DNA of 43,225 nt, taken from positions 1 through 43,225 of the forward strand of contig NZNW01000030.1 of assembly GCA_002695065.1 (NCBI GenBank). The letters are read 5' to 3'. The position numbers and the translations under genes are program-made. Under the pieces are notes generated by a model that had not been told where the DNA came from, did not search any database, and saw only the letters and a program-made list of their open reading frames with translations. Positions 17,901 through 39,330 of the stretch are shown here, piece by piece. The DNA is from Salinicola sp. Lineage in GTDB: Bacteria; Pseudomonadota; Gammaproteobacteria; Pseudomonadales; Halomonadaceae. Within the stretch, counting starts at the first letter, position 1. Each line of letters begins with the position of its first letter.

Positions 17901-20036
17901 CTACCAGATCACCACCCGCTTTTCGGGCGGCAGGTAGAGATCGTCGCCGGGCGTGACATCGAAGGCGTCGTACCACGCATCCATGTTGCGCACGATGCCG
18001 TTGACGCGGAACTGCGACGGCGAGTGGGGGTCGCCCTGCACCCGATTGATCATCTCCTCTTCGCGCATCAGGCGACGCCAGACCTGGCCCCAGGCCAGGA
18101 AGAAGCGCTGGTCACCGGTGAAGCCGTCGATGACCGGCGCGGGGTTGCCATCGAGCGAGCGGTGATAGGCACCCAGGGCGATGTTGAGTCCGCCGAGATC
18201 GCCGATGTTCTCGCCCATCGTCAGCTGCGGGTCGAGCGAGTAGCCCGGCACCGGTTCGTACTGGGCGTACTGCTGCCCGAGGTGTCTGGCCAGTTCGTCG
18301 AAATGCTCGGCGTCGGTGGTCGTCCACCAGTCGGTCAGCATGCCGGTACCGTCCGACTTGCGGCCCTGATCGTCGAAACCGTGGCTCATCTCGTGGCCGA
18401 TCACCGCGCCGATGCCACCGTAGTTGACCGCCGGATCGGCGTTCGGATCGAAGAAGGGCGGCTGCAGGATCGCCGCCGGAAACACGATCTCGTTGCGTGA
18501 GGGCGAATAGTAGGCATTGACGGTCTGCGGGTTCATGAACCACTCGTCCCGGTCCACCGGACCGCCGAGCTTGGCCAGATCGTCCTGCCAGTGCCACTGG
18601 CGCACGGCTCCGATATCGCCGTAAAGATCGTTTGAACTGATGTCCATCCCTGCATAGGTTTCCCATTCATCGGGATAGGCGATCTTGGCGGTGAAGGCGT
18701 CGAGCTTTTCCAGCGCCCGCTGACGGGTCCGGTCGGTCATCCAGCTCACCTGGTGTTGCAGACGATCGCGATAGGCGTCTTCGAGATTGGCGACCAGCGT
18801 CTCCATCTCGCTCTTGGCCCGGGGCGGGAAGTGCAGCATCACGTAGAGCTTGCCGGCGGCCTGCCCCAGGAAATCGTTGATCAGCGATACGCCGCGTTTC
18901 CAGCGCTCGCGCTGCTCCGGCTGGCCGGACAGACGCTTGCCGTGGAATTCGAAGTGCGCCCGGCTGAAGTCGCTCGAAAGGTAAGGACTGTTGGCGTCCA
19001 GCAATCTAAACGTCGCATAGGTCTTGAGCGTCGAGAGCGGCGTTTCGTCATAAAGCCGTGCCAGCTCGCGAATGGCGGTGTTCTCCGCCAGCACGACCTC
19101 GTCCTGACCGGCAAGTCCGCTGGCCGAGAGCCATGGCTGCCAGGGGAAACCGGAGGCATAGTCGCCGAGTCGATCCAACTGCAGTGGATTGTAGGTCAGA
19201 TCGCGATCCCGCTGTTTGGCCGGTGCCCACTCGACCCTCGCCATGGCGGTCTCCATCTCGAGGATTCGATGTGCGCTCTGTCGGGGATGGGGCTGCCCGG
19301 CCAATGTGAGGAGCCTGTCGATGTAGCCGAGGTAGGCCTGGCGAATCGCGTCGAAGCGCGGATCGTCGCCGAGATAGTAGTCCCGAGTGGGCAGGATCAG
19401 CGGAATCTGCGACAGGTAGACGGCGTAGCGATCCGGCGCCTTGACGTCGATATCGATCTCTGGCGTCACGATAGCCGGCACGCCGAGGCGGCTGTCGGCG
19501 CTGAACCGGGCCAGATCCCCCTTGCTCCCGATCGCCGCCAGGCGCTCCAGGTCCGGTATCAGCGGCGTGAGGCCCTTGGCCTCGATAGCGCCCTCGTCCA
19601 TCCAGGCGTGGTAGAGATCGCCCAACCGCTGCTGGGGCGAGTTCGGCGGGGTGTCGGCGCCATCGAGCTGGCGCAGAATGTCGCGCACCTGCTGTTCGGC
19701 GCGGTCGGCCAGCACGGTAAAGGCGCCGTAGTTGCTGCGGTCGGACGGAATCGAGGTGCGTGCCAGCCAGCCGCCGTTGACGTAGTGGTAGAAGTCGTCG
19801 CCAGGGGCGACGCTGGTGTCGCGGGCGCTCAGGTCGACGCCCCAGGTTCCTAGCCTGGTAGTAGTGGTGGCCGGCGCCGACGCGTGCGATGGGGCGGATG
19901 AGCTTGAGGTTGTCGAGGATGGCGATTCGCCCTGACTGCCAGCAGCAAATGGGCTTGAACCGGCGGTACCGGCGATCATCAGGAGCACGATGGCGCGGCG
20001 GATCGCCGAAGTTGATATGAAGTGTCTATCAGTCAT
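17901..20036 (-). CDS. Exported M13-family zinc metallopeptidase (PepO/neprilysin type)
   Basis: 711 residues. Residues about 1-32 form a Sec signal (AIRRAIVLLMIAGTAGSSPFA), followed by a serine/threonine-rich linker to about residue 58. The M13 N-terminal domain follows (PGDDFYHYVNGGWLARTSIP). The catalytic domain has H548-E-M-S-H552 and the third zinc ligand E609 in ENIGDLGGLNIA. It ends in PPEKRVVIW, the conserved M13 C-terminal tryptophan. M13 enzymes cut oligopeptides on the amino side of hydrophobic residues. No lipobox is seen, so a periplasmic or secreted location is inferred. It follows the TonB receptor gene and its terminator, so it may need readthrough or a promoter inside the receptor 3' end. 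Confidence 0.93.
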   Translation of the reverse strand: MTDRHFISTSAIRRAIVLLMIAGTAGSSPFAAGSQGESPSSTTSSSSAPSHASAPATTTTRLGTWGVDLSARDTSVAPGDDFYHYVNGGWLARTSIPSDRSNYGAFTVLADRAEQQVRDILRQLDGADTPPNSPQQRLGDLYHAWMDEGAIEAKGLTPLIPDLERLAAIGSKGDLARFSADSRLGVPAIVTPEIDIDVKAPDRYAVYLSQIPLILPTRDYYLGDDPRFDAIRQAYLGYIDRLLTLAGQPHPRQSAHRILEMETAMARVEWAPAKQRDRDLTYNPLQLDRLGDYASGFPWQPWLSASGLAGQDEVVLAENTAIRELARLYDETPLSTLKTYATFRLLDANSPYLSSDFSRAHFEFHGKRLSGQPEQRERWKRGVSLINDFLGQAAGKLYVMLHFPPRAKSEMETLVANLEDAYRDRLQHQVSWMTDRTRQRALEKLDAFTAKIAYPDEWETYAGMDISSNDLYGDIGAVRQWHWQDDLAKLGGPVDRDEWFMNPQTVNAYYSPSRNEIVFPAAILQPPFFDPNADPAVNYGGIGAVIGHEMSHGFDDQGRKSDGTGMLTDWWTTTDAEHFDELARHLGQQYAQYEPVPGYSLDPQLTMGENIGDLGGLNIALGAYHRSLDGNPAPVIDGFTGDQRFFLAWGQVWRRLMREEEMINRVQGDPHSPSQFRVNGIVRNMDAWYDAFDVTPGDDLYLPPEKRVVIW

Positions 20037-20057
20037 GATGTCTCGGTAGTTCGGATG

Positions 20058-20084
20058 AAAAAAGCCGCTGCACGAGTCAGCGGC
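20058..20084 (-). terminator. Intrinsic terminator after the TonB-receptor operon
   Basis: On the minus strand GCCGCTG, loop ACTCGTG, CAGCGGC is followed at once by TTTTTT (complement of 20063-20058). A textbook intrinsic terminator 26 bp after the receptor stop. Confidence 0.85.
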
Positions 20085-20109
20085 AATCGGTCGTTAGAAC
20101 GGTTGCCCG

Positions 20110-22908
20110 TCAGAAAGCGTAATTGAAACGGGCGTAGACTGTGCGACCCAGTGCGTCGGCGTAGCGGGCATCATAGCCGAGCTGACCAACTTCTGGCTGG
20201 TTGGAGAACGGCGGGTCGCGGTCGAACATGTTCCGTACGCCGAGGGTGACCGTCGGGCCGGCCGTGAACGCGTACGAACCCAGTGCGTCCCAAGTCGTGT
20301 AGGAACCGACTTCACTGTGAGTAGAGGTGTCGTAGTCGTCATAACCCGTCATGTAATGATTGATGACACCGGCACCCCAATGGCCCTTGTTCCAGTTGAC
20401 GGAAAGCTTGTGCTTCCAGCGGAAGACCGTGCCGTAGCCGGCGCGGTAGTGCCCGACGCGGCTGACGTAATCGCCATCTGGCGTTTCCTGGAAGTCATAG
20501 CGATCGACGTATGTGCCGGTGTAGCCCACGGTAAAGAAGCCGTAGCTTGTCGGCAGTCGATAGTTTGCCGACACGTCGACACCGTTGGTCTTGGTGGTGC
20601 CAAGGTTTTGATAGCGAACCGGAATGTAGTCGATTGACCCGTCATCGTTACGCACGATGTTGCCAGGCTCGTTGGCGATAACGTAATCGGAAGTCGGCAA
20701 GGCAACTTCGTTCTCGATCTCGATCCACCAGAAATCCAGACCCGCCGAAAAGCTCTGGAATGGCTGATAGACGAAGCCGAGTGTCCAGTTCTTGGCCTCT
20801 TCCGGTTTCAGATCTTCGTTGCCGCCCTGCTCCTCCAGGAACTGGGTGTTACAGTCGCGACTGCCAACGCCGCCGTTGGCGGGCGAGCCACCGGGGCAAA
20901 GGAGCGGGTCATTGAGGCCGCCTGGTGAGAACGTCTGCGCTGCAGGGTCGTAGAGTTCGTAGAGCGATGGGGCACGGAAGCCTTCGCTATAGGCACCACG
21001 AACCAGCAGTTGCTGGAAGGGTTGCCAGCGGAAGGAGATCTTGGGGTTGGTGGTATCGCCCACATCGCTATAGTCGTCGTAGCGCACTGCCGCCGTGACT
21101 TCGAGCCCGTCGATGATGGGTACGTTCAATTCACTGTAGATACCTTTGACATCACGACTCTCGTTGATCGAGGCATCCGGCGAGAGTCCGCCACTGGTCG
21201 CACGAGAGGCTACGTCGGGATCGGTCTCGAGCTTCAGTCGCTCGTGGCGGTAGTCGGCACCGACGGCGATGGCCGAGGAGCCGGCCCCAAACCAGTCGCC
21301 GATTTCGCGACTGAGTTTACCGTCCCAGGCGTAGACATCGTTCTGGGCGGTCCACACCAGCCCACTGGCCTCGGCATCTGCCAGGGCCTGTTGGCCGGCG
21401 GCGGTCAGCGGGTCGGTGGAGAACGGATCGATCAGTCCATTATTGAAAGCGTCTTGCAGGTCATTGTCATCGAGATAGCCGCTACGATAGTTCAGGTCTG
21501 TATCACTGCGGTTCCAGGAAACGGCGCTATCGTAGTTGAAACCGGAAAAATCGCCGGTGAAATCCAGCACCAGACGCTGGGCGTCGATAGTGTTGTCAGT
21601 CACACGGGGTCCAGCGGGAATACCGCGCCAACGTACGTCGACCGGTTGAGTTGGATCTAGCGCGGGATCGTCCGGATAGAAAGGTGTCCCGGGCTGAATG
21701 ACCGGACCACCAGAAGTCGGTGATGGCGCGCTCAGCGAGGTGTTTTTATTCCGTGACCATAGGTAGGAGAGAGAGGCCGTATGGTTCTCCGCCAGCTTGG
21801 CCGAGGCTCGAGTATAAAGCGACGTGTTCTCGGTCTTCTGCTGGATTTGGCCGTACCGGCCGTAGTCATAGGTACAGGTGCCGCCACCGGTATCGACCAA
21901 CCCCTCTCCGTTACAACCTTCTCCGGCAAGCGGGTTGCCTGCCACGTCGCCCTGGTAATAATTGCCAGGATAAGCGAAAGATGAAGTGCCGTTGATGCCG
22001 CTCGAAGGATCATAGATCTGGCGAATACTGCTACGGTCGGTATAGTCAACGTCATCTTGCTTGCGGTATCGCATCGATCCCATGATGTTGAAACCATCTT
22101 CTTCGAGATCGCCGTTGCCCCAGGTCGCGCTGATGTCGCCGCTATCGCCGCCACCACTATGGGTGGGTGCGTCGTAGCCGAGCTCCACGTTCCCTCCACT
22201 GAGGTTTTTCTTGGTGATGAAGTTGATGACGCCGCCGATGGCATCGGTGCCGTAGATTGCCGAGGCGCCGTCACGCAAGACCTCGACGCGCTCGATAGCG
22301 CCGAACGGAATCGAGTTGAGGTCAACGGCACTGCCGTCCAGCGAGTTATTGGCCAGTCGGCGACCGTTCAGCAGCACCAGTGTCTTGTCTGTGCCAATAC
22401 CACGCAGGTTGGCAAAACTGGCTCCACCGGTGATGGCTGTGCCTGTACCGTAACCGGGCCCGTAGCTTGTGTCGTTGGCGGAAATCTGCGAGAGCAACTG
22501 GGCGGTTGAAGTAATGCCTTGCTGCCTCATCTCCTCGGCTTCGATGATCGTCACCGGGACCGCAGTTTCGGCGTCCGTTCGGGCAATTGCCGAGCCGGTC
22601 ACCTCCATGCGGCCGAGATCCTGCGTCGGTGCGGCTGCGGGCGCCGCGACGGCCGCGGCAGGGGCAGCCGCCGCCGCAGCGGGTGCCGCCTCGGCAATCT
22701 CGTCGGATGCACCGGCCGGCGGGGCGACATAGTCATCGTCACTGCTCTGCGCCACGGCCAGTGGTGCCGCTGCCAGGATCAGACAGGTCGACGCGAGTAG
22801 GGATGACTTGCGCCATACGCCGGGACGCAGGATCGAGCTTCGCCACCCGAATTTCGGGCAAAGCGGGTCCGTGGGATGCTTGGCATCCCAAATTTTTTGG
22901 GTTGTCAT
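20110..22908 (-). CDS. TonB-dependent outer-membrane receptor
   Basis: 932 residues from the ATG at complement 22908, with AAGGAA upstream; an in-frame ATG 45 bp earlier lacks one. The signal region is long (about 53 residues, hydrophobic part SSLLASTCLILAAAPLAVAQ). An alanine/proline-rich linker (about 65-95) leads to the plug domain: MEVTGSAIARTDAETAVPVT, FANLRGIGTDKTLVLLNGRR, VEVLRDGASAIYGTDAIGGVINFIT. The large beta-barrel ends in ARFNYAF. This plug style (VTGS-RTD-ETAVPVT) is typical of receptors for polymers and peptides rather than classic siderophores, from memory. It is the last gene of a tonB-exbB-exbD-receptor operon and lies among peptidase and oligopeptide transporter genes, so a peptide substrate is inferred. 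Confidence 0.93.
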   Translation of the reverse strand: MTTQKIWDAKHPTDPLCPKFGWRSSILRPGVWRKSSLLASTCLILAAAPLAVAQSSDDDYVAPPAGASDEIAEAAPAAAAAAPAAAVAAPAAAPTQDLGRMEVTGSAIARTDAETAVPVTIIEAEEMRQQGITSTAQLLSQISANDTSYGPGYGTGTAITGGASFANLRGIGTDKTLVLLNGRRLANNSLDGSAVDLNSIPFGAIERVEVLRDGASAIYGTDAIGGVINFITKKNLSGGNVELGYDAPTHSGGGDSGDISATWGNGDLEEDGFNIMGSMRYRKQDDVDYTDRSSIRQIYDPSSGINGTSSFAYPGNYYQGDVAGNPLAGEGCNGEGLVDTGGGTCTYDYGRYGQIQQKTENTSLYTRASAKLAENHTASLSYLWSRNKNTSLSAPSPTSGGPVIQPGTPFYPDDPALDPTQPVDVRWRGIPAGPRVTDNTIDAQRLVLDFTGDFSGFNYDSAVSWNRSDTDLNYRSGYLDDNDLQDAFNNGLIDPFSTDPLTAAGQQALADAEASGLVWTAQNDVYAWDGKLSREIGDWFGAGSSAIAVGADYRHERLKLETDPDVASRATSGGLSPDASINESRDVKGIYSELNVPIIDGLEVTAAVRYDDYSDVGDTTNPKISFRWQPFQQLLVRGAYSEGFRAPSLYELYDPAAQTFSPGGLNDPLLCPGGSPANGGVGSRDCNTQFLEEQGGNEDLKPEEAKNWTLGFVYQPFQSFSAGLDFWWIEIENEVALPTSDYVIANEPGNIVRNDDGSIDYIPVRYQNLGTTKTNGVDVSANYRLPTSYGFFTVGYTGTYVDRYDFQETPDGDYVSRVGHYRAGYGTVFRWKHKLSVNWNKGHWGAGVINHYMTGYDDYDTSTHSEVGSYTTWDALGSYAFTAGPTVTLGVRNMFDRDPPFSNQPEVGQLGYDARYADALGRTVYARFNYAF

Positions 22909-22931
22909 TGTCTGGTGTTCCTTGAATAGCA

Positions 22932-22985
22932 GTTGTTGGTATTCGAAATTCAATAGCTATTATTTGGATGCTCTAGATTGTTGTT
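22932..22985 (-). promoter_or_regulatory. CA-motif leader of the TonB receptor gene
   Basis: The minus strand has AACAACAA (complement of 22985-22978) and a second ACCAACAACT about 24-32 nt before the ATG. A strong ribosome-site-like AAAGGAGGAAAAG lies a little upstream with no start codon after it. The AAnAAnAA form matches the motif bound by Hfq with Crc in pseudomonads. Confidence 0.45.
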
Positions 22986-23061: not shown

Positions 23062-23463
23062 CTAGGGCTGCGTGAGCACGGCTACTTTCTGAATGCCGGA
23101 GCGTTCCAACGCTGCCATGGCCTTGGCAACCGTGCCGTACTCCACCCCTTCATCCGCCTGAAGCTGTACGGCTTGGTCGGGGTTGTCCTCGTGAGCCTGG
23201 ACCAGCGCCTGCTCCAGGTCTTCGAAGCTGTACTCTTTTTTGCCAATAAAATAAGCACCATCGGCATCGACGCTCACGACCATCGGCTCCTTGGTTTCGG
23301 GAGGCGCGACGGCCCCCGTCTTGGGCAAATTGACGTGTACGGCATTGGTCATGAGTGGGGCGGTGACGATGAAGACCACCAGTAGCACCAGCATCACATC
23401 GACCAGCGGCGTGACGTTCATCTCACTGAGCACTTCGTCATCGTCGTGACTGGAAAAAGCCAT
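23062..23463 (-). CDS. exbD: Biopolymer transport protein ExbD
   Basis: 133 residues. A short cytoplasmic N-terminus rich in aspartate (SSHDDDEVLSEMNVTPL) leads into one membrane helix with the essential aspartate D22 (VDVMLVLLVVFIVTAPLM). A periplasmic domain with the ExbD/TolR fold follows. ExbD forms the proton channel with ExbB and energises TonB. Gap to exbB 50 bp. Its leader carries AATAAGAA overlapping the ribosome site AAGAAGG (complement of 23482-23473). Assigned to ExbD rather than TolR because tonB is in the same operon. Confidence 0.94.
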   Translation of the reverse strand: MAFSSHDDDEVLSEMNVTPLVDVMLVLLVVFIVTAPLMTNAVHVNLPKTGAVAPPETKEPMVVSVDADGAYFIGKKEYSFEDLEQALVQAHEDNPDQAVQLQADEGVEYGTVAKAMAALERSGIQKVAVLTQP

Positions 23464-23513: not shown

Positions 23514-24230
23514 TCAACCCATTGCCGGTGCAGGCGACGATACTTCCGGCGCGACAGGTCTGGGCGAGTGGCTTTGAAAGGCGTGCTGCTGGGCCAGGCT
23601 GTAGAAATCGTGAGCGAAGTCATCCATCAGCGAGACGTTGAGTTTCAGGCGCCGCGTAAAGTAGTTGTAAACCAGTACCGCGGGGACGGCGGCGGCGATA
23701 CCGACTCCCGTCGCAATCAATGCATGACCGATAGGTCCGGCCACGGTATCCAGGCCCGCCTCGCCGGTTTCGCCGATGGTGATCAATGCCTCCATGATGC
23801 CCCACACCGTGCCGAACAGACCGATGAAAGGAGAGGTGCTGCCGATACTGGCGAGAATCGCCAGGCCGCCTTCCAGAGAGCGCCTTTCACGTTGGATCTG
23901 CTGTCTCAGCGTACGTTCGAGTCGATCGGAGCGATTGACCTTCTGGGCCAGGTCCTGATTTCTGGGCGCGATGTCTCGTCCCGTAATGACATCGAATCCG
24001 GCTCGCGCGATCGATGCCATGGTGCCGGGGCGCTTTTCGCTGATGGATTCGCCTTCTTCCATGCTCTTGGCCTCCCAGAAAGCCTTCTGGAAGCGTTTGT
24101 TCTCGACTCGGTTCCTGGCGAATTGAAGGCCCTTGATCAGCAGAATGGCCCAGGTCGCGATGGAGAATACGATCAGCGTCCACAGCACGCCGGGAACGAT
24201 CATGGCGGTAATATCGTTGGATTCCATCAT
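23514..24230 (-). CDS. exbB: MotA/TolQ/ExbB proton channel family protein ExbB
   Basis: 238 residues with three membrane helices (about 8-30, 130-155, 175-200). The conserved family core is TSPFIGLFGTVWGIMEAL and GPIGHALIATGVGIAAAVPAVLVYNYF. ExbB is the pentameric part of the inner-membrane proton motor that drives TonB. Two ATGs are adjacent (complement of 24230 and 24227); ribosome site AAGGAAAA. It lies 39 bp after tonB. The leader holds AAACAACAAC (complement of 24268-24259). Confidence 0.94.
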   Translation of the reverse strand: MMESNDITAMIVPGVLWTLIVFSIATWAILLIKGLQFARNRVENKRFQKAFWEAKSMEEGESISEKRPGTMASIARAGFDVITGRDIAPRNQDLAQKVNRSDRLERTLRQQIQRERRSLEGGLAILASIGSTSPFIGLFGTVWGIMEALITIGETGEAGLDTVAGPIGHALIATGVGIAAAVPAVLVYNYFTRRLKLNVSLMDDFAHDFYSLAQQHAFQSHSPRPVAPEVSSPAPAMG

Positions 24231-24268: not shown

Positions 24269-24269
24269 G

Positions 24270-25115
24270 TCAGTTGGGAAGCTGAAACGCGATTGTCTGC
24301 AGCGCCCAGCCCTTGATCGGCGTATCGCCACGTCTTGCCGGCTTGAACGTCCACCCACGAACCGTCTCGACGGCGGCTTCATCCAGTTCTCGATGCCCAC
24401 TGGACTGAATGACCTGTACCTGACCCGCCGTGCCATCAGGCATGACCAATATCTTCAACTGCACGTTACCCTCGTAACCGCGGCGCAGTGCCAGCGAAGG
24501 ATAGCGGGGCGGCGGGTTGCCGAGACTCTGCATGCCGGATACTGCGGGCGTGACCTCGTTGCTCGACGATGCGCTGGCACTCTGCGCCGGCTTAGAAGGC
24601 TGGCTCGGTGTCAGTGCAGGCTTCTGCGGAGCCGGCGTGGGTGCTGGCTTCGGTTGCGGCTTCGGTTGCGGCTCGGGCTGAGGTTGCGGCTCAGGCTCAG
24701 GCTCCGGCTCGGGCTCAGGCTCCGGTTCGGGTTGTGGCTCAGGCTCTGGCTGAGGTTCCGGCTCTGGTTCCGGCTCCGGTTCGGGAGACACTTCCTCTTC
24801 GGCCGGTGTGACGGCGACATCATCCACGACCGGTGCTTCCTGAACGGGCGGCGGTTCGACCGGGGGAGGCGGTGGCGGGGGCGGTGGTTGCGGCGGGGGT
24901 GCGCTGGTCAGCGAGACCGTGACTTCCGAGGCCTGGGATGCCTGATTGGGCAGAACTTCGGCCGCAATCATGGGGTGACGATTCAACGACCACCATATCA
25001 ATCCGTGAATCAGCGCCGATATCGCTATCAGGACCAGCACTTCCGGTCGTGATATCGAACGTCTGTTTTTTTGCGTGAATCCCTGAGCGGGAAGCCCGTG
25101 CTCGATCGCGGTCAT
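24270..25115 (-). CDS. tonB: TonB energy-transducing protein with long Pro-Glu/Gln/Lys linker
   Basis: 281 residues. The N-terminal membrane helix carries the SxxxH motif S33-A-L-I-H37 used to couple to ExbBD. A polyproline run follows, then about 50 residues of Pro-Glu, Pro-Gln and Pro-Lys dipeptides that span the periplasm. The C-terminal domain (about 195-281) shows [17 protein letters not shown] and [23 protein letters not shown], the receptor-contacting fold. It is the first gene of the operon and sits behind the sigma-54 element. Having its own receptor in the operon suggests a TonB system dedicated to this substrate. Confidence 0.95.
24653..24790 (-). repeat. Low-complexity coding repeat in tonB
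   Basis: A run of imperfect 6-bp units (CCGGAG/CCTGAG/CCGCAA type on the minus strand) encoding Pro-Glu and Pro-Gln dipeptides. Such tracts change length by slippage; that would alter the periplasmic reach of TonB without a frameshift when whole units change. Confidence 0.7.
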
Positions 25116-25189: not shown

Positions 25190-25206
25190 AGCAATATATG
25201 TGCCAA
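25190..25206 (-). promoter_or_regulatory. Sigma-54 (-24/-12) promoter of the tonB-exbB-exbD-receptor operon
   Basis: On the minus strand TTGGCACATATATTGCT: TGGCAC, five bases, TTGCT. The GG of the -24 and the GC of the -12 element are exactly 10 bp apart, as sigma-54 requires. Transcription would start near 25180, about 65 nt before the tonB ATG. The match is close to the family consensus; expression needs an enhancer-binding activator. Confidence 0.7.
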
Positions 25207-25635
25207 TCAGTGCAGGCCGATAACAATGTTTTTCGGTGGGTGGTGATCGTGATATTGAAGATTTTATACAAAATCGCAGGTTGCGGTTTAGGATTGAGTA
25301 AACAATTGTTTTATGGGGGTTAGTTTCAGATATTTCTCAGGCTTTCCGTCACCTTGATTGCAGCATGACTGGTGAGGAAGGGTAGGTTGTATAACACCTG
25401 CGATGCTGCGGGGAATCGTCCTTGAGAGAGTTGTCTGGTTTCTAACAAACCGACTCTGCTGTCGTCCAGTCGTATGTCTTTTATTGCACTCGAGTAGTGC
25501 GAATTCTGGCACGTCGCACCGCTAAAAAACATACGTTTTATGAATGAAGGGATAGGAAAAACGCATGCCGATTACGGTCTTTATATTCAGCACCGAAAGG
25601 GGGTGTGTTTTCCGTAACCGATGAATAACAGCTGC
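25207..25635. other. AT-rich upstream regulatory region of the tonB operon
   Basis: About 430 bp with no credible gene, clearly AT-richer than the rest of the window. It holds the NtrC-type palindrome at 25486-25500 and a 12-bp palindrome AAACAATTGTTT at 25300-25311. The layout (enhancer, bendable spacer, -24/-12) fits a sigma-54 control region. I did not find a clear IHF site. Confidence 0.5.
25486..25500. promoter_or_regulatory. NtrC-type enhancer palindrome GCAC-N7-GTGC
   Basis: GCACTCGAGTAGTGC, an inverted repeat with flanks extending to ATT/AAT. GCAC, seven bases, GTGC is the layout of NtrC sites known from enterobacteria. It lies about 300 bp upstream of the -24/-12 element, a normal enhancer distance. 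Only one good copy was found; NtrC usually binds pairs. Confidence 0.5.
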
Positions 25636-25660
25636 AAAAACGCCCTCGATATGAGGGCGT
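25636..25660 (-). terminator. Intrinsic terminator after pepF
   Basis: On the minus strand ACGCCCTC, loop ATATC, GAGGGCGT, then TTTTT. It lies 66 bp after the pepF stop and closes the long opp-pepF gene run. Confidence 0.85.
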
Positions 25661-25726
25661 TCATGCGTAGCGGTGATGTCGTCATACTGACTGAATATCT
25701 CGATCCGCGAGTCTTGTGCCCGCTCC

Positions 25727-31468: not shown

Positions 31469-33070
31469 TCATTGCTCGCGCTCCTGGAGATAGCGCAGCG
31501 GATGAACGTCCATCGGGTTGCTCTCCCAGCCCTGGAGATCGGGTGAAACCAGGTGAACGGAGACATAGTCGTAGAGTGGCAGCAGCGCATAGTCGTCCAG
31601 CAGTCGCTGCTGGGCACGGGTCATCAACTGGCGGCGCTTCTCGGCGTCGAGTTCGCCGGTGCTCTCGGCGACGAGCGCGTCGTAGGTCGCGTCGTGGTAG
31701 CCGCTGCTCCGGCTGGCCGAGCCGTTGTCGGCGTAGGCATTGAGGAAATCGAACGGGTCGTTGATGGTTGCCACCATGCCGTAGCGCGCCACCTCGAAAT
31801 TGCCTTCGCGGATGGTGGCGTAGTGGACGGCCGCCTCGGAGTTGATCAGCTCGACCTCCACGCCCAGCGGCTTCCACATCGCGGCCACCGCCACCGCGAT
31901 CTTCTTGTGATCTTCCAGGGTGTTGTAGTTGAGCCTCAGGTGCAGCGGATGGTTGGGTCCGTAGCCCGCTTCCTGCATCAGCTCCCTGGCGCGTGCCATG
32001 CGCTGGTCCATCGGCATGTCGGCGAAATCCAGCTCGCCCTGCGGCGCGTTGTCGGTGTTGCGCGGCACGTACCAGAACGAGGGGGTCTGGCCCTGGCCGA
32101 GGATCTGGTCGGTGATGACGTCGCGCCGGACGGCCAGGTTGAGGGCTTCGCGAACGTGTTTATCCGCCAGCGGCTGGCCGTCGTGAAGATTGAACATGTA
32201 GAAGTATTCCGCCGTCAGCGGGCCGACTCTCAGCGCGTCGCCGAGGTTCTCCCGCGCCCAGGCAAAGCGTGACGACGGCACGCTGGAGTAGGCGATGTCC
32301 ATCTCGCCGGTGCGGAAACGGTTGAGGGCCGAGCCGGCATCGTCGATGGGATAGAAGGTGACCTTGTCCACGGCGACGCTGTCGGCGGCATGGAAATGGG
32401 AGTTCTTCTCCACCACGATGCGCGACTGCGGCTGCCACTCACTCAGGGTGAAGGCGCCGCTGGAAACGGTGTTGCCCGGCTGCACCCAGCCCGCGGCGTC
32501 GGCGATGGCATGTTCGGGAAGCGGCGCCGCTTCGGTCATCGCCAGCGCCTGCAGGAACCAGGCGGTGGGCTGGGTCAATCGGATGCGCAGCGTATGCGAA
32601 TCGACGGCTTCGACCCCGAGGGCATCGGCGCTCTTGTCACCGGCATTGATCGCTCGGGCGTTGACGATGGGGTAGTAGAGATTGGCGTTCTGGTTGGCGA
32701 TCGCCGGATCGAGCACGCGACGCAGGGCGAAGACGGCGTCCTCGGCAGTTATCGGCTCGCCGTCGGACCACTCGGCGTCGCGCAGATGGAAGGTGTAGGT
32801 CTTGCCGTCGTCGCCGACTTCCCAACGATCGGCCAGCCCCGGGACCAGGCTGCCATCCTTGGCGTAGGTGACCAGGCCCTCGAACAGCGCGCGGGTGATG
32901 CGTGTCTCCCAGGTGCCGCTGGTCTTCTGCGGATCGAGGGTGCCCGGCTCGGCACCGTTGGCGATATTGACGCTGAAGGCCTGCGCCGGGATGGCGAATG
33001 CCGTTAGTGTGATGCCGCCCAGCGTGGCAAGCAGATGCCGCGAGATCTTGCTGTAGGGTTTCGAAATCAT
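31469..33070 (-). CDS. Oligopeptide-binding protein, copy 1 (oppB-proximal)
   Basis: 533 residues from MISKPYSKISRHLL (complement of 33070, behind AAGGGA); a longer frame adds 18 unlikely residues. Sec signal to about residue 30 (TAFAIPAQA), no lipobox. Family 5 extracellular solute-binding protein: GAEPGTLDPQKTSGTWETRI at the mature N-terminus, DRWEVGDDGKTYTFHLRD, and HVREALNLAVRRDVI. It delivers peptides to OppBC. It is the copy nearest the permease genes and most like classic OppA in its N-terminal PGTLDPQ. Gap to copy 2 is 76 bp. Confidence 0.93.
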   Translation of the reverse strand: MISKPYSKISRHLLATLGGITLTAFAIPAQAFSVNIANGAEPGTLDPQKTSGTWETRITRALFEGLVTYAKDGSLVPGLADRWEVGDDGKTYTFHLRDAEWSDGEPITAEDAVFALRRVLDPAIANQNANLYYPIVNARAINAGDKSADALGVEAVDSHTLRIRLTQPTAWFLQALAMTEAAPLPEHAIADAAGWVQPGNTVSSGAFTLSEWQPQSRIVVEKNSHFHAADSVAVDKVTFYPIDDAGSALNRFRTGEMDIAYSSVPSSRFAWARENLGDALRVGPLTAEYFYMFNLHDGQPLADKHVREALNLAVRRDVITDQILGQGQTPSFWYVPRNTDNAPQGELDFADMPMDQRMARARELMQEAGYGPNHPLHLRLNYNTLEDHKKIAVAVAAMWKPLGVEVELINSEAAVHYATIREGNFEVARYGMVATINDPFDFLNAYADNGSASRSSGYHDATYDALVAESTGELDAEKRRQLMTRAQQRLLDDYALLPLYDYVSVHLVSPDLQGWESNPMDVHPLRYLQEREQ

Positions 33071-33146
33071 CTGGTAATGCGTCCCTTGGCCGCCGGTCGC
33101 TGCGAATCGATGACACGGCGGCATTGGTGATTCGAATTGTCGTTTG

Positions 33147-34781
33147 TCAGTCCGACGCTAGCGAAAGCCAGCGCGACAGGTGCCGGTTGAGCGCGTTGTC
33201 TTTCCAGCCATCCAGCTTGGGGTTGACCAGGTTGCGCGAGACGTCGACGTAGATCGGTGCCACCGCATAGTCGGAGAGCGCCTGCCGCTCCGCCTGTTGC
33301 AGCAGTTGCTGGCGGGCGGCCATGTCGGTCTCGCGACTGGCCTTGGCCATCAGCTCGTCGAACGCCTGACTGCGATAGCCGCCGTAATTCTTGGGCGAGT
33401 CGCTCTCCAGGATGCCGAGGAAGTTGCTGGCGTCGTCGAAGTCCGCGACCCAACTGCCGCGGCCGACGTCGAAGTTGCCGTTGGCGAGCTCGGCGTAGTG
33501 CACCGCGCCCTCGGCGTTGATCAGTTGCGTCTCGACCCCCAGCGGCTGCCACATCGCGGCCAGCGCCACGGCGATGCGCTTGTTGGCCTCGGTAGTGGAG
33601 TAGCGCAGGGTCAGCTCGAGCGGGTGATCGGGACCGTAGCCGGCGTCCGCGAGCAGGCTCCTGGCCTCGGCGACCCGATCATCCATCGTCCGATCCAGGC
33701 CGGGCATGGTCTGGGCGTCATAGTGGCTGACGCCACCGGGGACGAAGCCGCTGGCCGGGGAGACGACGCCACCCATGATCTGTTCGGCGATGACGTCCCG
33801 GCGAATCGCCAGGTTGAGCGCTTCCCTGACACGCTTGTCGGCGGTGGGGTGGCCATCGCGCTGGTTGAGCGCGAAGTAGTAGTTGGCCAGCTGCGGCGCG
33901 AGGTGTACGGCGTCGGGCAGGTTCTCCTGCAGCCACTGATATCGATCCGGCGAGAAGTCGCGGACGATGTCGAGACCGCCGGCGCGGAAGCGTTGCAGGC
34001 CGGCGCTGCGATCCTCGACCGGATAGTAGTCGACGCCATCGAGGGCGACGTCGTCGGCGTCGTGGAATTCGGGATTCTTGCGCGCCGCGATGTGATCGTG
34101 AGAGGTCCAGCTTGTCGGGGTGAAGGCGCCGTTGGTGGCGATATGATCCATCTGGGTCCAGTCGTTGCCGAATCGATCGACCAGGTGGGAAGGCACCGGA
34201 GACGCGGCGATGTGCGCCAGCAGCGTCGGGAAGTAGGGCGTCGGCTGGTTCAGGGTGATCTTCAAGGTCTTGGCATCGACCGCTTCGACACCGAGTTCGG
34301 GGGCGTCCTGCTCGCCCTTGGTATGCGCTTCGGCGCCGCGAATCGGATAGAACAGGCTGGCGTAGACGGCGCCGTTGGCCGGATCGAACAGCCGCTGGAA
34401 GGCGAGCACGAAGTCCTTGGCGACCACGGGTTCGCCGTCCGACCAGTTGGCGTCGTCGCGCAGCTTGAAGGTGTAGACGATGCCGTCGTCGCTGACGTCC
34501 CAGCCGCTGGCGGCGCCGGGGATGTACTCGCCGGCCGGGTCCAGCGTGACCAGGCCCTCGAACAGGTCGCCGAGGACGTCGTTCTCCCAGGTGGTACCCC
34601 CGATCCGGGCGGTATCCAGCGAGGCCGGTTCACCCTGGATGCCGATACTCAGCGTGGCGGCCCGAGCGGTGTCGACGGACAGGGCTGTCGCCAGGCTCAC
34701 GGCCGCGAGCAGGGGAAGAACGAGCCTGGCGGTTCTTCGATGTGAGCCGTATCTGGGCTGTGTACGCATGATCGAGTCCAT
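33147..34781 (-). CDS. Oligopeptide-binding protein, copy 2
   Basis: 544 residues from the ATG at complement 34781; an ATG four codons later is equally possible. Sec signal (ARLVLPLLAAVSLATALSVDTARA), no lipobox. Family 5 solute-binding core: GEPASLDTARIGGTTWENDVLGDLFEGL, WDVSDDGIVYTFKLRDDANWSDGEP, and RVREALNLAIRRDVIAEQIMGG. The mature N-terminus (ASLDTARIGG) differs from copy 1 (GTLDPQKTSG), suggesting a changed ligand pocket. It sits between the NlpC/P60 gene and copy 1. AATAACAA lies directly upstream of the start. Confidence 0.93.
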   Translation of the reverse strand: MDSIMRTQPRYGSHRRTARLVLPLLAAVSLATALSVDTARAATLSIGIQGEPASLDTARIGGTTWENDVLGDLFEGLVTLDPAGEYIPGAASGWDVSDDGIVYTFKLRDDANWSDGEPVVAKDFVLAFQRLFDPANGAVYASLFYPIRGAEAHTKGEQDAPELGVEAVDAKTLKITLNQPTPYFPTLLAHIAASPVPSHLVDRFGNDWTQMDHIATNGAFTPTSWTSHDHIAARKNPEFHDADDVALDGVDYYPVEDRSAGLQRFRAGGLDIVRDFSPDRYQWLQENLPDAVHLAPQLANYYFALNQRDGHPTADKRVREALNLAIRRDVIAEQIMGGVVSPASGFVPGGVSHYDAQTMPGLDRTMDDRVAEARSLLADAGYGPDHPLELTLRYSTTEANKRIAVALAAMWQPLGVETQLINAEGAVHYAELANGNFDVGRGSWVADFDDASNFLGILESDSPKNYGGYRSQAFDELMAKASRETDMAARQQLLQQAERQALSDYAVAPIYVDVSRNLVNPKLDGWKDNALNRHLSRWLSLASD

Positions 34782-34783
34782 CC

Positions 34784-34859: not shown

Positions 34860-35843
34860 TCACGTTCCTGCGGGAACAGTTCCTGCGGGAATCGCCGTTC
34901 CCGGATCGCCCGGGTCGAGAAAGCGACGCACGGCGCAGAGCTGTGTTTCGTAGCGACTGCCAGAAAGCCGGCGACATTCGATTCGGGCGTTGTTGGTCGG
35001 CGCGTGGAGCATGCGGTCATCGCCGAGATAGAGCGCAACGTGGTCGACCACCAGCCGGCCTGCGTCGTCGGGCTTCTCGAAGAACAGCAGATCGCCCCCA
35101 CGGCGCTCGTCCGGCGCGACCGGAAGCCCCGTCTCGACCTGGTCGTGGGCGTCCCGAGGCAGACGCATGCCGATGGCGGCGAACAGGCTGTGAACCAGAC
35201 CCGAGCAGTCGTAGCCGAAGCTCGAGTTGCCGGCCCACAGATAGCGCAGACCGTCGAAGCGCCGCCCCAGCGTTTCCAGCGTCGCGGCAGTCGCCGGCAG
35301 GCCCTCGCCCGGCAACTGGACGCTGTCGCGTGGCAGCCAGCCGCGTCCCAGCGATGTCTCCACCCAGACGCGGGAGGCTCTCCGGTCAGCGACTTCCGGC
35401 ACCGGTTCGGCCAGTTTCAGCCGAGTCAGAAAACTCAGTTTCAGCGAGCGTTCCTGGGGTAGACCCTGCAGCCAGGCGATGGGAGCCATCACCACCACCG
35501 ACTCGGCATCGGCCGGGCAGCCCTCTGCCTCGACGAGCTGCGCCGCCGGGATCCAGCCGGGGTAGCCGCGCTCGTCCAGCGAGGACCGCTGGCTTGGAAC
35601 CACCACGCGACACCAGTCGTTGCCGTGACCGTCACGATGGCGTTCGAGGATCCCGACCGGCGTGTCCAGCAGCACCTGGGTGGCGAGCCGCTTCTCCTTG
35701 CACAGCGCCAGACGGGTCTCGTCGTCCAGCGCGGCCAACCAGCGCTCGAGCAGAACCGGATTGCCGAGCGCCGGGGCATCGATGGCCCGGGGTGCGTCGG
35801 GGGAGGTCCACAATCCCGCCACGGCGACGGCCACGCAGCTCAT
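34860..35843 (-). CDS. NlpC/P60 peptidase with SH3-like domains (YkfC-like)
   Basis: 327 residues; the ATG (complement of 35843) has AGGGGA upstream. No convincing signal peptide: the N-terminus MSCVAVAVAGLWTSPDAP is short. Two SH3-like regions (about 45-110 and 115-180) precede an NlpC/P60 domain with C213 (FGYDCSGLVHSLF), H268 (DHVALYLGDD) and H280. The YLWAGNSSFGYDCSG pattern fits B. subtilis YkfC, a gamma-D-glutamyl-L-diamino acid endopeptidase acting on free murein peptides. Placed among four oppA copies, it suggests that part of the imported peptide pool is murein-derived. The cytoplasmic location is inferred. Confidence 0.85.
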   Translation of the reverse strand: MSCVAVAVAGLWTSPDAPRAIDAPALGNPVLLERWLAALDDETRLALCKEKRLATQVLLDTPVGILERHRDGHGNDWCRVVVPSQRSSLDERGYPGWIPAAQLVEAEGCPADAESVVVMAPIAWLQGLPQERSLKLSFLTRLKLAEPVPEVADRRASRVWVETSLGRGWLPRDSVQLPGEGLPATAATLETLGRRFDGLRYLWAGNSSFGYDCSGLVHSLFAAIGMRLPRDAHDQVETGLPVAPDERRGGDLLFFEKPDDAGRLVVDHVALYLGDDRMLHAPTNNARIECRRLSGSRYETQLCAVRRFLDPGDPGTAIPAGTVPAGT

Positions 35844-35896: not shown

Positions 35897-37495
35897 TTAC
35901 TCGGTGAAGTGAACCCAACGTGACGGATGATCGTCCTCCACGTTGTCTTCCCAGCCTTCGAGCTTCGGGTTCACCAGGTTGCGGGTGACGTAGGTCAGCA
36001 TGGGAATGAACGCGTAGTCGTCCAGCGCCACGTTCTCCGCTTTCTCGAGCAGCTTCTCGCGGGCATCCAGATCCAGCGTCTGGGCGGCCTGGTCCATCAG
36101 CTTGTCGTACTCGGGGTTGGAGTAGGCGCCGTAGTTGTTGCCGACACCGGTGTGCAGCAGGGTGAGGAAGTTCTCGGCATCGTCGTAGTCGGCGATCCAG
36201 CCGGCCCGGGCGACGTCGAAATCGCCCTGCTGAATGGTCTGGTAGTGGACGGTGGCTTCGGAGTTGATCATCTGCACGTTGACGCCCAGCGGCTTCCACA
36301 TCGCGGCAACGGCGATGGCGATCTTCTTGTGCTCGTCACTGGTGTTGTAGCGCAGGCGCAGATTCAGCGGATGATCGGGGCCATAGCCCGCTTCCTGCAG
36401 CAGCGCCTTGGCCTTGGCCATGCGCGCGTTCATGTCGTCGCTGCCGAGGTCCATGTGCTGAGTGTCATAGTGGCTGGTACCGGGCGGGACCATGGCGGTG
36501 GAGGCCTTGAAGCTGCCGGCCATGATCTGCTCGGAGAGCACGTTGCGACGGATCGCCAGGTTGAGCGCTTCACGCACGCGCTTGTCGGCGGTGGGGCTGC
36601 CCTCGCGGTTGTTGAGCACGTAGTAGTAGGAGCCGAGATACGGGCTCATGTGAGTGGCGTCGGGGAGGTTCTCACTCAGCCACTGGTAACGGCTGGAGGG
36701 ATATTCTCGCAGCACGTCCAGCTCACCGGCGCGGAAGCGCGAGATTCCGGCGTTGCGATCTTCCGTGGTGAAGTAGTTGACGCCATCCAGGGAGACATCG
36801 TCGGCATCGTAGTAGGTCGAGCTCTTCTCGACGCTGATCTTCGACTGCGAGACCCAGTCCACCGGCTTGAACGCGCCGTTGGTGGCGATATGGTCCAGTT
36901 TGACCCAATCCTTGCCGTACTCGTCGACCAGGTGCTTGGGCACCGGGTAGGCGGTGTAGTGGGTCAGCAACTGCGGAAAGTAAGGTGTGGCGTGATTGAG
37001 CGTGACCTTGAGCGTCCTGCCGCCATCGAGAGATTCCGCCCCCAGCGTGTCGGCGGCCTTGTCGCCGGTGTTGATCGCTTCCGCGTTGACGATCGGATAG
37101 AGCATGTAGGCGTACTTGGAGGCGTTCTCCGGCGCCAGCAGATGCTGCCAGCCGAACACGAAGTCCTCGGCGGTGACCGGCTCGCCGTCGGACCACTTCG
37201 CGCCTTCCCGCAGTTGGAAGGTGTAGGTCTTGCCGTCGTCGGAGACCTCCCACTCGGTGGCCATGCCCGGCAGCAGTTCGCCGTCCGGCGACTTCTTGAA
37301 CAGCCCTTCGTAGACATCCATCAGCACCTGGGATTCCCACACGCCGCCGGAGACCTGTGAGGTATCGAACGAGGCGAGTTCGCCCATGACGCCGATATTG
37401 AGCGTCTCGGCCAGCGCCGACGGGGCCATCAGGGAAGTGGCCAGCGCCAGGGCGCCCAGGGGCAACAGGGTGCGGGGGAGTTGCAGCTTCGACAT
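35897..37495 (-). CDS. Oligopeptide-binding protein, copy 3
   Basis: 532 residues; ATG at complement 37495 behind GGAG. Sec signal (LPRTLLPLGALALATSLMAPSALA), no lipobox. Family 5 solute-binding features: GELASFDTSQVSGGVWESQVLMDVYEGL, TEWEVSDDGKTYTFQLREGAKWSDGEP, and KRVREALNLAIRRNVLSEQIMAG. It is clearly a paralog of copies 2 and 4 (same SGGVWE and RREALNLAIRR framework). The NlpC/P60 gene starts 53 bp after its stop. AACAACAA precedes the start. Confidence 0.93.
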   Translation of the reverse strand: MSKLQLPRTLLPLGALALATSLMAPSALAETLNIGVMGELASFDTSQVSGGVWESQVLMDVYEGLFKKSPDGELLPGMATEWEVSDDGKTYTFQLREGAKWSDGEPVTAEDFVFGWQHLLAPENASKYAYMLYPIVNAEAINTGDKAADTLGAESLDGGRTLKVTLNHATPYFPQLLTHYTAYPVPKHLVDEYGKDWVKLDHIATNGAFKPVDWVSQSKISVEKSSTYYDADDVSLDGVNYFTTEDRNAGISRFRAGELDVLREYPSSRYQWLSENLPDATHMSPYLGSYYYVLNNREGSPTADKRVREALNLAIRRNVLSEQIMAGSFKASTAMVPPGTSHYDTQHMDLGSDDMNARMAKAKALLQEAGYGPDHPLNLRLRYNTSDEHKKIAIAVAAMWKPLGVNVQMINSEATVHYQTIQQGDFDVARAGWIADYDDAENFLTLLHTGVGNNYGAYSNPEYDKLMDQAAQTLDLDAREKLLEKAENVALDDYAFIPMLTYVTRNLVNPKLEGWEDNVEDDHPSRWVHFTE

Positions 37496-37512
37496 CTTTG
37501 GAAAGCTCCGAC

Positions 37513-37691: not shown

Positions 37692-37712
37692 GAGCGGCTA
37701 GTGACGCCGCTC
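37692..37712. terminator. Hairpin between oppA copies 4 and 3
   Basis: GAGCGGC (37692-37698), 7-nt loop, GCCGCTC (37706-37712) in the 254-bp gap after oppA copy 4. No T run follows on the minus strand, so it may be a processing or partial termination element that lowers or stabilises one of the messages. The rest of the gap shows no gene. Confidence 0.45.
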
Positions 37713-37749
37713 CTGCTGTGATTTCAGTCACAGATAGACGTTGGTCTAG

Positions 37750-39330
37750 TCACTCCGGCAGCTCGATCCAGCGCGAGGCATGCATATCCAGTGCGTTGTC
37801 GTTCCATCCCTCGATTTCGGGATCGACCAGGTTGCGCGAGCTATAGGTATAGATCGGCGTCAGCGGATAGTCGGCCAGCGCCAGTGCCTCGGCCTGCTGC
37901 ATCAGCTGTGCGCGCTTGGCCGGGTCCTGCTCGGCGTCCGACCGGGTGACCAGCTGATTGTAGTCGTCGTTCTGGTAGGCGCCGTAGTTGTTGGTCTCCG
38001 CCGACAGCAGTTGCAGGAAGTTCTGGGCGTCGTCGTAGCTGGAGATCCAGGCGGCGCGGGCAACCTGGAAGTCGCCCTCCATCAGGTCGGCGTAGTGGAC
38101 GTTGGCCTCGGTGTTTCTGAGTTCGACATCGACCCCCAGGGGCTTCCACATCGCGGCGACGGCCACGGCGATCTGCCGGTGCTCGTCGCCGCTGTTGAAG
38201 CGCAGGGTCAGCTCGAGCGGCTTGTCCGGACCGTAGCCGGCCTCTTCCATCAGCGATTTGGCCCTGGCCAGGCGGCTGTCCATGTCGTCATCGAGCCCGG
38301 GCTGGGACTGGGCCTCATAGTCGCTGGTTCCCGGCGGTACCAGCGAGGTGGCCGGCTCGACGCCGCCTTTCAGCAACTGGCTGGCGATGACGTCGCGGCG
38401 AATCGCCAGGCTCAGCGCCTCGCGGACGCGCTTGTCCGCCACCGGCGAGCCGTCGCGCAGGTTGAACACGTAGTAGTAGGTGCCCAGCGACGGGAACAGA
38501 TGGGTGGCATCGGGGAGGTTGTCGGAGAGCCGCGGATACTGCGCCGCGGGATAGTCGCGCAGGATATCCAGCTCGCCGGCACGAAAGCGCTGGATGCCGG
38601 CGTTCTTGTCCTCCAGCGGGTAGTAGTCGACGCCATCCAGGCTGACGTTGTCGGCGTCATGGAAGCGGTCGTTCTTGACCGTTTCCAGCTCGGTATTGGA
38701 AACCCATTTCACCGGCTTGAAGGCGCCGTTGACCGCGATGTGGGAAGGATCGCTCCAGTCGTCGCCGAACTCATCCACCACATGCTTGGGGATCGGGTAG
38801 GCGAACGGCAGCACCAGCGTCTTGAGGAAATAGACGGTGGGGGCGTTGAGGGTGATCTGGAGCGTCTTGCCGTCGTCCAGGGATTCGACGCCCAGCGAAT
38901 CGAGCGGCTTGTCGCCTGAGTTGATCGCCTGGGCATTGACCACCGGATAGAGGCGGTGGGCGTAATTGGAAGCGGTCTTGGGATCGACCTGGTGACGGTA
39001 GGCGTAGACGAAGTCGTCGGCGGTCAACGGCTCGCCGTCGGACCATTCGAGCCCATCGCGAAGGTGAAAGGTGTAGGTCTTGCCATCGTCGGAGATGTTC
39101 CAGCTCTCGGCGGCGCCGGGGATGATCCGGCCGTCGGCGTCGATGGCGACCGGGCCCTCGAAGATGTCCCGCAGCACATCTTCTTCCCACACGCCGCCAG
39201 TGATCTTGGCCGGGCTCAGCGAAGCGGGATCCCCGGAGATGCCCATGTGCAGCGTGGCTGCCTGGATGGGCAGGGCGCTCAGGGTGGCTGCGAAACCGAT
39301 GGCGGCTGCCAGGCGAGTCGGTGATATCAA
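37750..39330 (-). CDS. Oligopeptide-binding protein, copy 4
   Basis: 526 residues with a TTG start (complement of 39330) behind GAGGGATC; no in-frame ATG upstream fits. Sec signal (LAAAIGFAATLSALPIQA), no lipobox. Family 5 core: GDPASLSPAKITGGVWEEDVLRDIFEGP, WNISDDGKTYTFHLRDGLEWSDGEP, and KRVREALSLAIRRDVIASQLLKGG. It is the first gene of the minus-strand opp run and diverges from prfB. It may have its own terminator-like hairpin downstream, so its dosage could differ from the other copies. Confidence 0.92.
   Translation of the reverse strand: MISPTRLAAAIGFAATLSALPIQAATLHMGISGDPASLSPAKITGGVWEEDVLRDIFEGPVAIDADGRIIPGAAESWNISDDGKTYTFHLRDGLEWSDGEPLTADDFVYAYRHQVDPKTASNYAHRLYPVVNAQAINSGDKPLDSLGVESLDDGKTLQITLNAPTVYFLKTLVLPFAYPIPKHVVDEFGDDWSDPSHIAVNGAFKPVKWVSNTELETVKNDRFHDADNVSLDGVDYYPLEDKNAGIQRFRAGELDILRDYPAAQYPRLSDNLPDATHLFPSLGTYYYVFNLRDGSPVADKRVREALSLAIRRDVIASQLLKGGVEPATSLVPPGTSDYEAQSQPGLDDDMDSRLARAKSLMEEAGYGPDKPLELTLRFNSGDEHRQIAVAVAAMWKPLGVDVELRNTEANVHYADLMEGDFQVARAAWISSYDDAQNFLQLLSAETNNYGAYQNDDYNQLVTRSDAEQDPAKRAQLMQQAEALALADYPLTPIYTYSSRNLVDPEIEGWNDNALDMHASRWIELPE

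Follow-up and report, generated by a model that had tools for sequence, protein, structure and literature searches.

Does a TonB-dependent receptor unit that lies beside an oligopeptide importer form one route for peptides with it, or are the two ordinary neighbours? The question was raised by a contig of a halophilic bacterium of the genus Salinicola (NZNW01000030.1, contig C23 of a 4.68-Mb assembly in 153 contigs). The entire contig, 43,225 nucleotides (nt), was analysed and is called the window here. All 14 genes between positions 17901 and 39330 lie on the minus strand, as a first-pass annotation had noted. The gene families that it had listed (tonB-exbB-exbD-receptor, M13 and M3 peptidases, oppB, oppC, a fused oppDF, four oppA copies and an NlpC/P60 enzyme) were each matched by Pfam above curated cut-offs. 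The region consists of two parts, an Opp core and a cassette. The cassette comprises an exported PepF (the M3 peptidase), tonB-exbB-exbD, the receptor and an exported M13 peptidase.

The region is probably a sigma-54-controlled peptide-scavenging route, in which the cassette is docked onto a resident Opp importer. Behind this reading stand the gene content, two transcription units with a terminator between them, a conserved sigma-54 box, inheritance of the cassette as a block, and the association of several members of the receptor clade with peptide importers and peptidases. If the parts were ordinary neighbours, Opp would serve oligopeptides or murein peptides, the receptor unit would take up an unrelated metal, siderophore, heme or vitamin, and the peptidases would be housekeeping enzymes. 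We regard this as unlikely.

Two transcription units linked by PepF

The genes are transcribed in the order oppA4, oppA3, nlpC, oppA2, oppA1, oppB, oppC, oppDF and pepF, then, after a gap of 611 nt, tonB, exbB, exbD, the receptor gene and M13. Intergenic gaps within the two blocks are 22-254 nt. The cassette and its control region hold the following features:

25727..27634, minus strand: PepF-type M3 oligoendopeptidase, exported, last gene of the opp unit (NCBIfam pepF equivalog, 521.6 against a cut-off of 490.55 bits)
25636..25661, minus strand: intrinsic terminator after M3, a hairpin followed by a T run (sequence reading)
25486..25500, minus strand: GCAC-N7-GTGC dyad resembling an NtrC site, a tentative enhancer (8 of 11 loci carry it without mismatch)
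25190..25205, minus strand: predicted sigma-54 -24/-12 promoter TGGCACATATATTGCT, 90 nt before tonB (pattern match)
24270..25115, minus strand: TonB with a Pro-rich spacer (TonB_C, E 1.8e-21)
23514..24230, minus strand: ExbB (MotA_ExbB, E 6.2e-33)
23062..23463, minus strand: ExbD (ExbD, E 9.6e-33)
20110..22953, minus strand: TonB-dependent receptor (barrel PF00593, E 2e-47, and plug PF07715, E 5.5e-22, both over cut-off)
17901..20036, minus strand: M13 endopeptidase of the PepO/neprilysin type, exported (Peptidase_M13_N, E 2.7e-112; Peptidase_M13, E 4.4e-70)

Because of the hairpin terminator and the 611-nt gap, we place the boundary of two transcription units between M3 and tonB. The terminator was found by reading the sequence and is absent from the output of the scan; hairpins of other sequence were seen by eye at the same place after M3 in relatives. 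A single operon was ruled out by the terminator and by the gap with its own promoter. A terminator between the units also fits unrelated neighbours. The first-pass annotation, which had drawn a single route, had overlooked the sigma-54 promoter, and its interpretation is supported in part.

The pepF gene starts 61 nt after oppDF. GC content at third codon positions (GC3) is 0.71 for M3, and 0.66-0.73 for this gene together with tonB, exbB, exbD and the receptor gene; it is 0.85-0.95 for oppA1-4, oppB, oppC and oppDF, and 0.80 for nlpC. Because PepF is placed at the end of the opp unit, yet inherited with the tonB unit and similar to it in low GC3, it ties the outer- and inner-membrane steps together. 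An exported peptidase whose gene is transcribed with the importer and inherited with the receptor would look like the periplasmic trimming step expected between both.

Both peptidases carry an HExxH motif, at residue 420 in M3, which passed the pepF equivalog, and at residue 548 in M13, which has both of its domains and also an NAYY motif. The M13 protein scored below the cut-off of the lactococcal PepO equivalog (303.1 against 1000). A hydrophobic stretch (score at least 1.85) was present within the first 30 residues of a possible start in 26 of the 27 homologues tested (15 M3 and 12 M13). The remaining one, the M13 of L107, scored 0.85. This was a plain hydropathy test, distinct from SignalP, in which the best-scoring start was chosen; it agrees with the signal peptides that had been noted earlier for M13 and M3.

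A conserved sigma-54 box before tonB

With one mismatch allowed, TGGCAC-N5-TTGCW matched the window only at TGGCACATATATTGCT, where the match is exact (1.3 matches expected by chance). The genome has sigma-54, since it contains an open reading frame with all three sigma-54 domains. One of the six genomic matches to TGGCAY-N5-TTGCW lies 90 nt before this frame.

The box TGGCA[C/T]-N5-TTGCT preceded tonB in 11 of 11 receptor-bearing Halomonadaceae, with six different spacers. It was also found before tonB of G478, G571 and G567 (contig C22), which belong to another family (f163), and before a tonB-exbB-exbD set of G573 that is unlinked to the receptor of that genome. All 15 examined loci of this tonB-exbB-exbD type, from two families, carried it 87-114 nt before the tonB start. 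As controls we used 57 other receptors, i.e. all other Plug matches (E up to 1e-8) in G589, G478, G571 and G573. The strict pattern had seven matches in the 1.10 Mb around them. These count as four sites because two loci overlap, and one of the four is the G573 tonB. Two other ExbB-bearing control loci (L163, L179) had no strict match, nor had the fetched stretches of the tonB-less receptor loci G567-C13 and G589 or the sequence upstream of the G573 receptor. We predict with good confidence that sigma-54 controls the tonB unit. As a separate observation, the strict pattern also occurs in G213 (contig C15, L047:12192), 28 nt upstream of the earliest possible start of a distant clade receptor that has no tonB.

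The dyad upstream of the box was compared with the NtrC-site consensus, and NtrC is the suspected activator. NtrC as a proven activator was not upheld, as three of the 11 loci lack the dyad. In this genome the glnK-amtB region had neither a strict site nor a dyad, and only a weaker sigma-54-like site and some near-dyads were seen there by eye. Sigma-54-type promoters are often tied to nitrogen, and in E. coli, opp and dpp are nitrogen-controlled. The promoter scan found no sigma-70 promoter before tonB. No Fur box with up to 3 mismatches was matched in the window, which argues against an unrelated iron unit; iron control of the locus was rejected on the same result.

Inheritance of the cassette in Halomonadaceae

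Homologues were searched in 201 Halomonadaceae genomes (E up to 1e-60). Of these, 11 had the receptor, 15 had M3 and 12 had M13; each of the 11 receptor genomes had both peptidases (Fisher p values near 3e-15 for M3 and near 3e-17 for M13, uncorrected for kinship). The first-pass annotation had made its proposal depend on conservation of the genes together in relatives, and this is what these 11 genomes display. They also have the gene order Opp-M3-tonB-exbB-exbD-receptor-M13 in common. The closest named receptors are those of Salinicola species, with 93-97% identity in the close group. One genome (G017) has M13 without the receptor, at an identity of only 39%.

Among 18 Salinicola genomes, nine had the receptor, M3 and M13, and nine had none of the three. 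OppB was found in 17 of the 18, G134 having no match. The Opp locus was fetched for eight of the nine cassette-less genomes, and all eight keep the order OppA-OppA-NlpC-OppA-OppA-OppB. One of these stretches (G131) ends after OppB. In the seven that extend beyond OppDF, no M3, TonB or receptor was found past it. A FadL or NolX-type gene then follows in five of the seven, and FadL lies almost directly against OppDF in G124. Five cassette-less genomes other than G124 have an EF-hand protein (Pfam match in L114), a porin-like protein (so named by eye; no Pfam match in L114), or both at the place of the cassette.

On an rpoN tree of these Salinicola genomes, four or more changes are needed to explain where the receptor is present; with labels shuffled the average was 6.3, and 114 of 2000 shuffles gave four or fewer. 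Two sister pairs differ in the receptor, G087 (present) and G124 (absent) with a support of 99, and G128 (present) and G107 (absent) with a support of 100. In an Opp tree of 22 genomes, at least six changes were counted. Both trees have several poorly supported inner branches. Gain and loss are not distinguishable. M3-tonB-exbB-exbD-receptor-M13 is a block that varies as one, gained or lost together. An Opp core that stands alone in Salinicola would be expected of unrelated neighbours; an M3 gene that sits in the opp unit, yet is gained or lost with the receptor, would not.

Two side observations concern the surroundings of the cassette. In three genomes (G007, G031 and G046; L051-L053), genes resembling a gamma-glutamylputrescine synthetase and an FAD amine oxidase lie between OppDF and M3 (by eye), which suggests polyamine use in the same slot. 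In the window, the cassette adjoins a gene for a protein of 1155 amino acids (14337-17804) with internal repeats and weak NolX/HrpF-type matches; in several relatives it is shortened, divergent or not found.

The receptor and its relatives

The receptor probably starts at the ATG at 22908, as several relatives align from the corresponding methionine. Its sequence has a TonB-box-like MEVTGS from residue 116 and F as the final residue. The adjoining TonB passed tonB_Cterm (67.1 against 27.1). The best NCBIfam matches of the receptor were hemoglobin/heme and siderophore models, far below cut-off, and this favours ordinary neighbours. All siderophore, heme and B12 models remained below cut-off (TIGR01783, 91.1 against 223.5; TIGR01786, 142.8 against 323.75; TIGR01785, 138.5 against 316.85; TIGR01779, 112.8 against 599.7). 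The best PDB matches, CirA and enterobactin receptors, point the same way, and the best-matching part lies in the N-terminal third of the receptor. Heme receptors carry a His between the FRAP and NEDL segments, and no His lies between them here. The SusC_RagA signature scored below cut-off (22.6 against 46.2 bits), and there was no SusD/RagB partner among the Pfam matches of the 14 region proteins.

In a tree of 32 receptors, the receptor fell into a clade of 24 rows (100/100). E. coli FhuA, FecA, BtuB, CirA and FepA stand outside this clade, as do three further receptors of the Salinicola genome. The five E. coli receptors are the only characterised references, with no heme receptor among them, and several branches are long. 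Clustering with siderophore or vitamin receptors, which the first-pass annotation had named as fatal to its proposal, was not seen against these references. Within the clade, the 11 Halomonadaceae receptors group with six f163 rows (100/99); G589, Massilia agri and five further rows stand outside this group.

Several relatives adjoin other peptide genes. In G478 the neighbours of tonB-exbB-exbD-receptor are a POT peptide transporter and an M3 peptidase of divergent sequence. In G589 the receptor is followed on one strand by oppA-oppB-oppC-oppD, and then by an S53 (sedolisin-like) protease with Pfam activation and PKD domains, whose residues 262-607 match sedolisin (E 1.8e-55). An M14 carboxypeptidase follows the receptor in G365 and G473, two members of one genus. 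The Massilia agri receptor has a family-5 binding protein (SBP5) before it and an S66 LD-carboxypeptidase after it, and one G213 receptor has a YkuD protein nearby. Among the families tested, no peptide importer or peptidase neighbours two G213 receptors and that of G881. The subfamily association proposed at first pass is seen in several relatives and missing in others.

The neighbours were counted against the 57 controls. The target loci were L045, L073, L074, L075, L077, L079, L047, L048, L049, L050, L080 and L024, with L025 added in a repeat; the flank pieces L046, L076, L078, L081, L082, L083 and L133 were left out of the neighbour count. The main set of seven (Halomonadaceae counted once, five f163 loci and G589) was chosen by the analyst, so the p values are indicative only. 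Both an importer and a peptidase were found in 3/7 targets and 0/57 controls (p 0.0008), and in 3/13 of the wider clade (p 0.005). Either of the two was found in 3/7 (p 0.02) or 6/13 (p 0.002), compared with 4/57 controls. Those four, which represent two sites, had POT or Opp genes nearby, and a tested peptidase was found beside none of the controls. The POT, S53, M14, S66 and second M3 models were built from the target loci themselves, a bias that favours the targets. Several control loci overlap one another, and L154 overlaps the flank of a target.

Block inheritance with PepF weakens the ordinary-neighbours explanation, and so do these other assemblies, in which Opp or POT and a peptidase stand beside relatives (G478, G589); the separate receptor clade also speaks against it. 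Two further observations were made in these genomes. In G567 (contig C22; L075, L076), a single tonB-exbB-exbD set that has a sigma-54 box is followed by three clade receptors in tandem. In G589 (contig C4; L199, L203), a second Opp cluster lies near two other TonB receptors, possibly another peptide route.

The Opp core and muropeptides

The Opp core contains the following genes:

37750..39330, minus strand: OppA4, oligopeptide-binding protein (SBP_bac_5, E 3.5e-86)
35897..37495, minus strand: OppA3 (SBP_bac_5, E 3.1e-82)
34860..35843, minus strand: NlpC/P60 peptidase, YkfC-like (NLPC_P60, E 1.6e-23)
33147..34781, minus strand: OppA2 (SBP_bac_5, E 6.8e-81)
31469..33124, minus strand: OppA1 (SBP_bac_5, E 2.8e-79)
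30499..31425, minus strand: OppB permease (NCBIfam OppB equivalog passed, 442.2 bits against a cut-off of 388)
29480..30439, minus strand: OppC permease (BPD_transp_1 and OppC_N)
27696..29330, minus strand: OppDF, fused ATPases, last Opp-core gene (two ABC_tran and two oligo_HPY stretches)

Binding protein, two permeases and two ATPase domains, the components of an Opp importer, are present in one cluster. OppC scored below its equivalog cut-off (379 against 433).

A second alternative is that the whole locus serves muropeptides: the receptor would take peptidoglycan fragments of dead neighbours, followed by Opp/MppA-like import and YkfC-like cleavage. The NlpC/P60 protein aligned over residues 4-309 of 327 with 3h41 (E 2.7e-48), which we take to be Bacillus YkfC, and has DCSG at 212-215. 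It resembles a YkfC-like gamma-D-Glu-diaminoacid peptidase of muropeptide recycling. By eye it has no signal-peptide-like start, so its location is probably cytoplasmic. The best PDB relatives of OppA3 are MppA/OppA, with the murein peptide-binding protein 4toz at E 3.9e-102. The S66 LD-carboxypeptidase beside the distant Massilia receptor and the YkuD protein near one G213 receptor also favour muropeptides. Against this, the NlpC/P60 gene belongs to the Opp core, is kept in genomes without the cassette, and was not found in G109 (Kushneria sinocarnis), which carries the cassette. The cassette peptidases are of the M13 and PepF types, which cleave ordinary L-peptides, and the other assemblies carry S53, M14 and POT. 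We hold muropeptide uptake by the whole locus to be improbable. NlpC/P60 and the MppA-like OppA3 probably fit muropeptide recycling rather than the polypeptide route, into which the NlpC/P60 enzyme had been drawn at first pass.

The OppA1 slot (31469-33124) holds different alleles. Identity is 95% in G043 and 84-94% in G055, G066, G077 and G124. In G003, G027, G087 and G112 it is only about 51%, and the adjoining opp genes there are mostly 90-100% identical. The pattern looks like the replacement of one binding protein. Elsewhere in the window, 7-base tandem repeats flank lysS, at 40733-40823 and 42399-42454 (TAGCTTC; GAGCTAC/GGGCTAC).

Proposed route

For the route itself we infer what is carried and in which direction, a periplasmic location of the peptidases, the identity of the activator, and service of the receptor by the adjoining TonB. 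An activator, suspected to be NtrC responding to nitrogen limitation, would fire the promoter at 25190-25205 together with sigma-54 RNA polymerase. This would yield a dedicated TonB-ExbB-ExbD set, the outer-membrane receptor and the exported M13. The TonB-powered receptor would let into the periplasm peptides that are too big to pass through porins, and there M13 and the exported PepF would trim them to sizes that OppA binds. OppA would hand them over for import by OppBC-DF, and PepF, transcribed with opp, would couple the two halves.

Several results weigh against this reading. Peptide import by the receptor, and with it the substrate side as a whole, is drawn from gene context. No importer or peptidase of the tested kinds stands beside the receptor in G571, G567 (two loci) and G573, and such loci make up 4/7 (the 11 Halomonadaceae taken as one) or 7/13 in the wider clade. 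M3 occurs without the receptor in G090 and three g7 genomes (G007, G031, G046), and the GC3 of M13 (0.82) lies outside the low-GC3 pattern. ExbB and ExbD scored higher with the TolQ and TolR models of NCBIfam (171.7 over 143.1 and 123.5 over 105.1), all below cut-off, so the assignment of the motor to TonB rests on the adjoining tonB gene. Exact matches to TGGCAY-N5-TTGCW are only slightly commoner in the 4.68-Mb genome than those to the reversed control (6 against 4). The dyad lies 295-327 nt upstream of the box, where sites within about 200 nt of the promoter would be expected of an NtrC regulon; S. avicenniae, Kushneria sinocarnis and G009 lack an exact copy, and GCAC-N7-GTGC arose in 127 of 20000 shuffles of the gap. 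An AlphaFold model of the receptor from 10 rows reached a pLDDT (predicted local distance difference test) of 29 and was left unused for a fold search.

A role in export or signalling, in which the TonB unit would help to release M13 and PepF or would process or break down a secreted peptide, as reported for Oar and PopC of Myxococcus, is very improbable indeed: a TonB receptor required for protease secretion is described in the available part of PMC6434023 and the receptor and M13 genes are adjacent, but M13 and M3 have signal-peptide-like starts of their own (26 of the 27 tested) and the importers beside some clade members point inward.

We therefore return to the peptide-scavenging route. 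The outer-to-inner-membrane path for polypeptides that the first-pass annotation had sketched withstood both of its own tests, co-conservation and receptor phylogeny; NlpC/P60 and the Opp core also occur without the rest, and import is read from context. There is about an even chance that the locus represents a class of Gammaproteobacteria loci. In such a class, a SusD-free TonB receptor clade with its own sigma-54-controlled TonB-ExbB-ExbD would be docked, in different families, onto a resident importer (Opp or POT) with varying peptidases (PepF and M13, another M3, S53 or M14), and the uptake of polypeptide fragments would be switched on by nitrogen limitation.

Many TonB receptors of Gammaproteobacteria are without a known substrate, and context, block inheritance and the conserved sigma-54 promoter point to one class. 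Protein is named as a likely substrate of such receptors, with context rarely helpful, in the available part of PMC8371827. Named Salinicola type strains with the cassette have close relatives without it, including sisters in the rpoN tree, and this makes peptide import and nitrogen control directly testable. The receptor clade may also serve as a marker for reading environmental data.

Comparison with known systems

Among the matches listed in a search of open-licence literature, no paper described this gene composition. The Opp/Mpp systems of E. coli and Salmonella with YkfC-type processing are similar in OppB, in OppA3, which is closest to MppA/OppA, and in the YkfC-like peptidase. The Salinicola locus differs from them by its four OppA, the fused OppDF, an exported PepF as the last gene and the TonB receptor unit next to it.

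The nitrogen-scavenging regulons of NtrC/RpoN are a further parallel, as the predicted tonB promoter fits TGGCACN5-7TTGCT, the consensus in the available part of PMC12316311. The same text describes the control of TonB by sigma-54 as unconfirmed for Flavobacteriia. The difference is that a tonB-exbB-exbD operon carries the promoter here, and that control by NtrC is only suspected.

RagAB of Porphyromonas, a peptide importer of the SusCD type, is alike in the TonB-driven uptake of protein fragments across the outer membrane. In a table of PMC3400609, as far as available, it is the cluster with RagA to which digested proteins are assigned, and another lists fibronectin. Unlike RagAB, the Salinicola locus has no SusD/RagB partner by Pfam and a SusC_RagA signature below cut-off, and it includes a tonB-exbB-exbD set of its own as well as two exported peptidases, with an Opp importer next to it.

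Polysaccharide utilisation loci and the TonB loci of Gammaproteobacteria likewise group a receptor, depolymerases and an inner-membrane importer. In the Salinicola locus the polymer would be a peptide and the enzymes are peptidases. It would be a TonB nutrient locus with peptidases in place of glycosidases.

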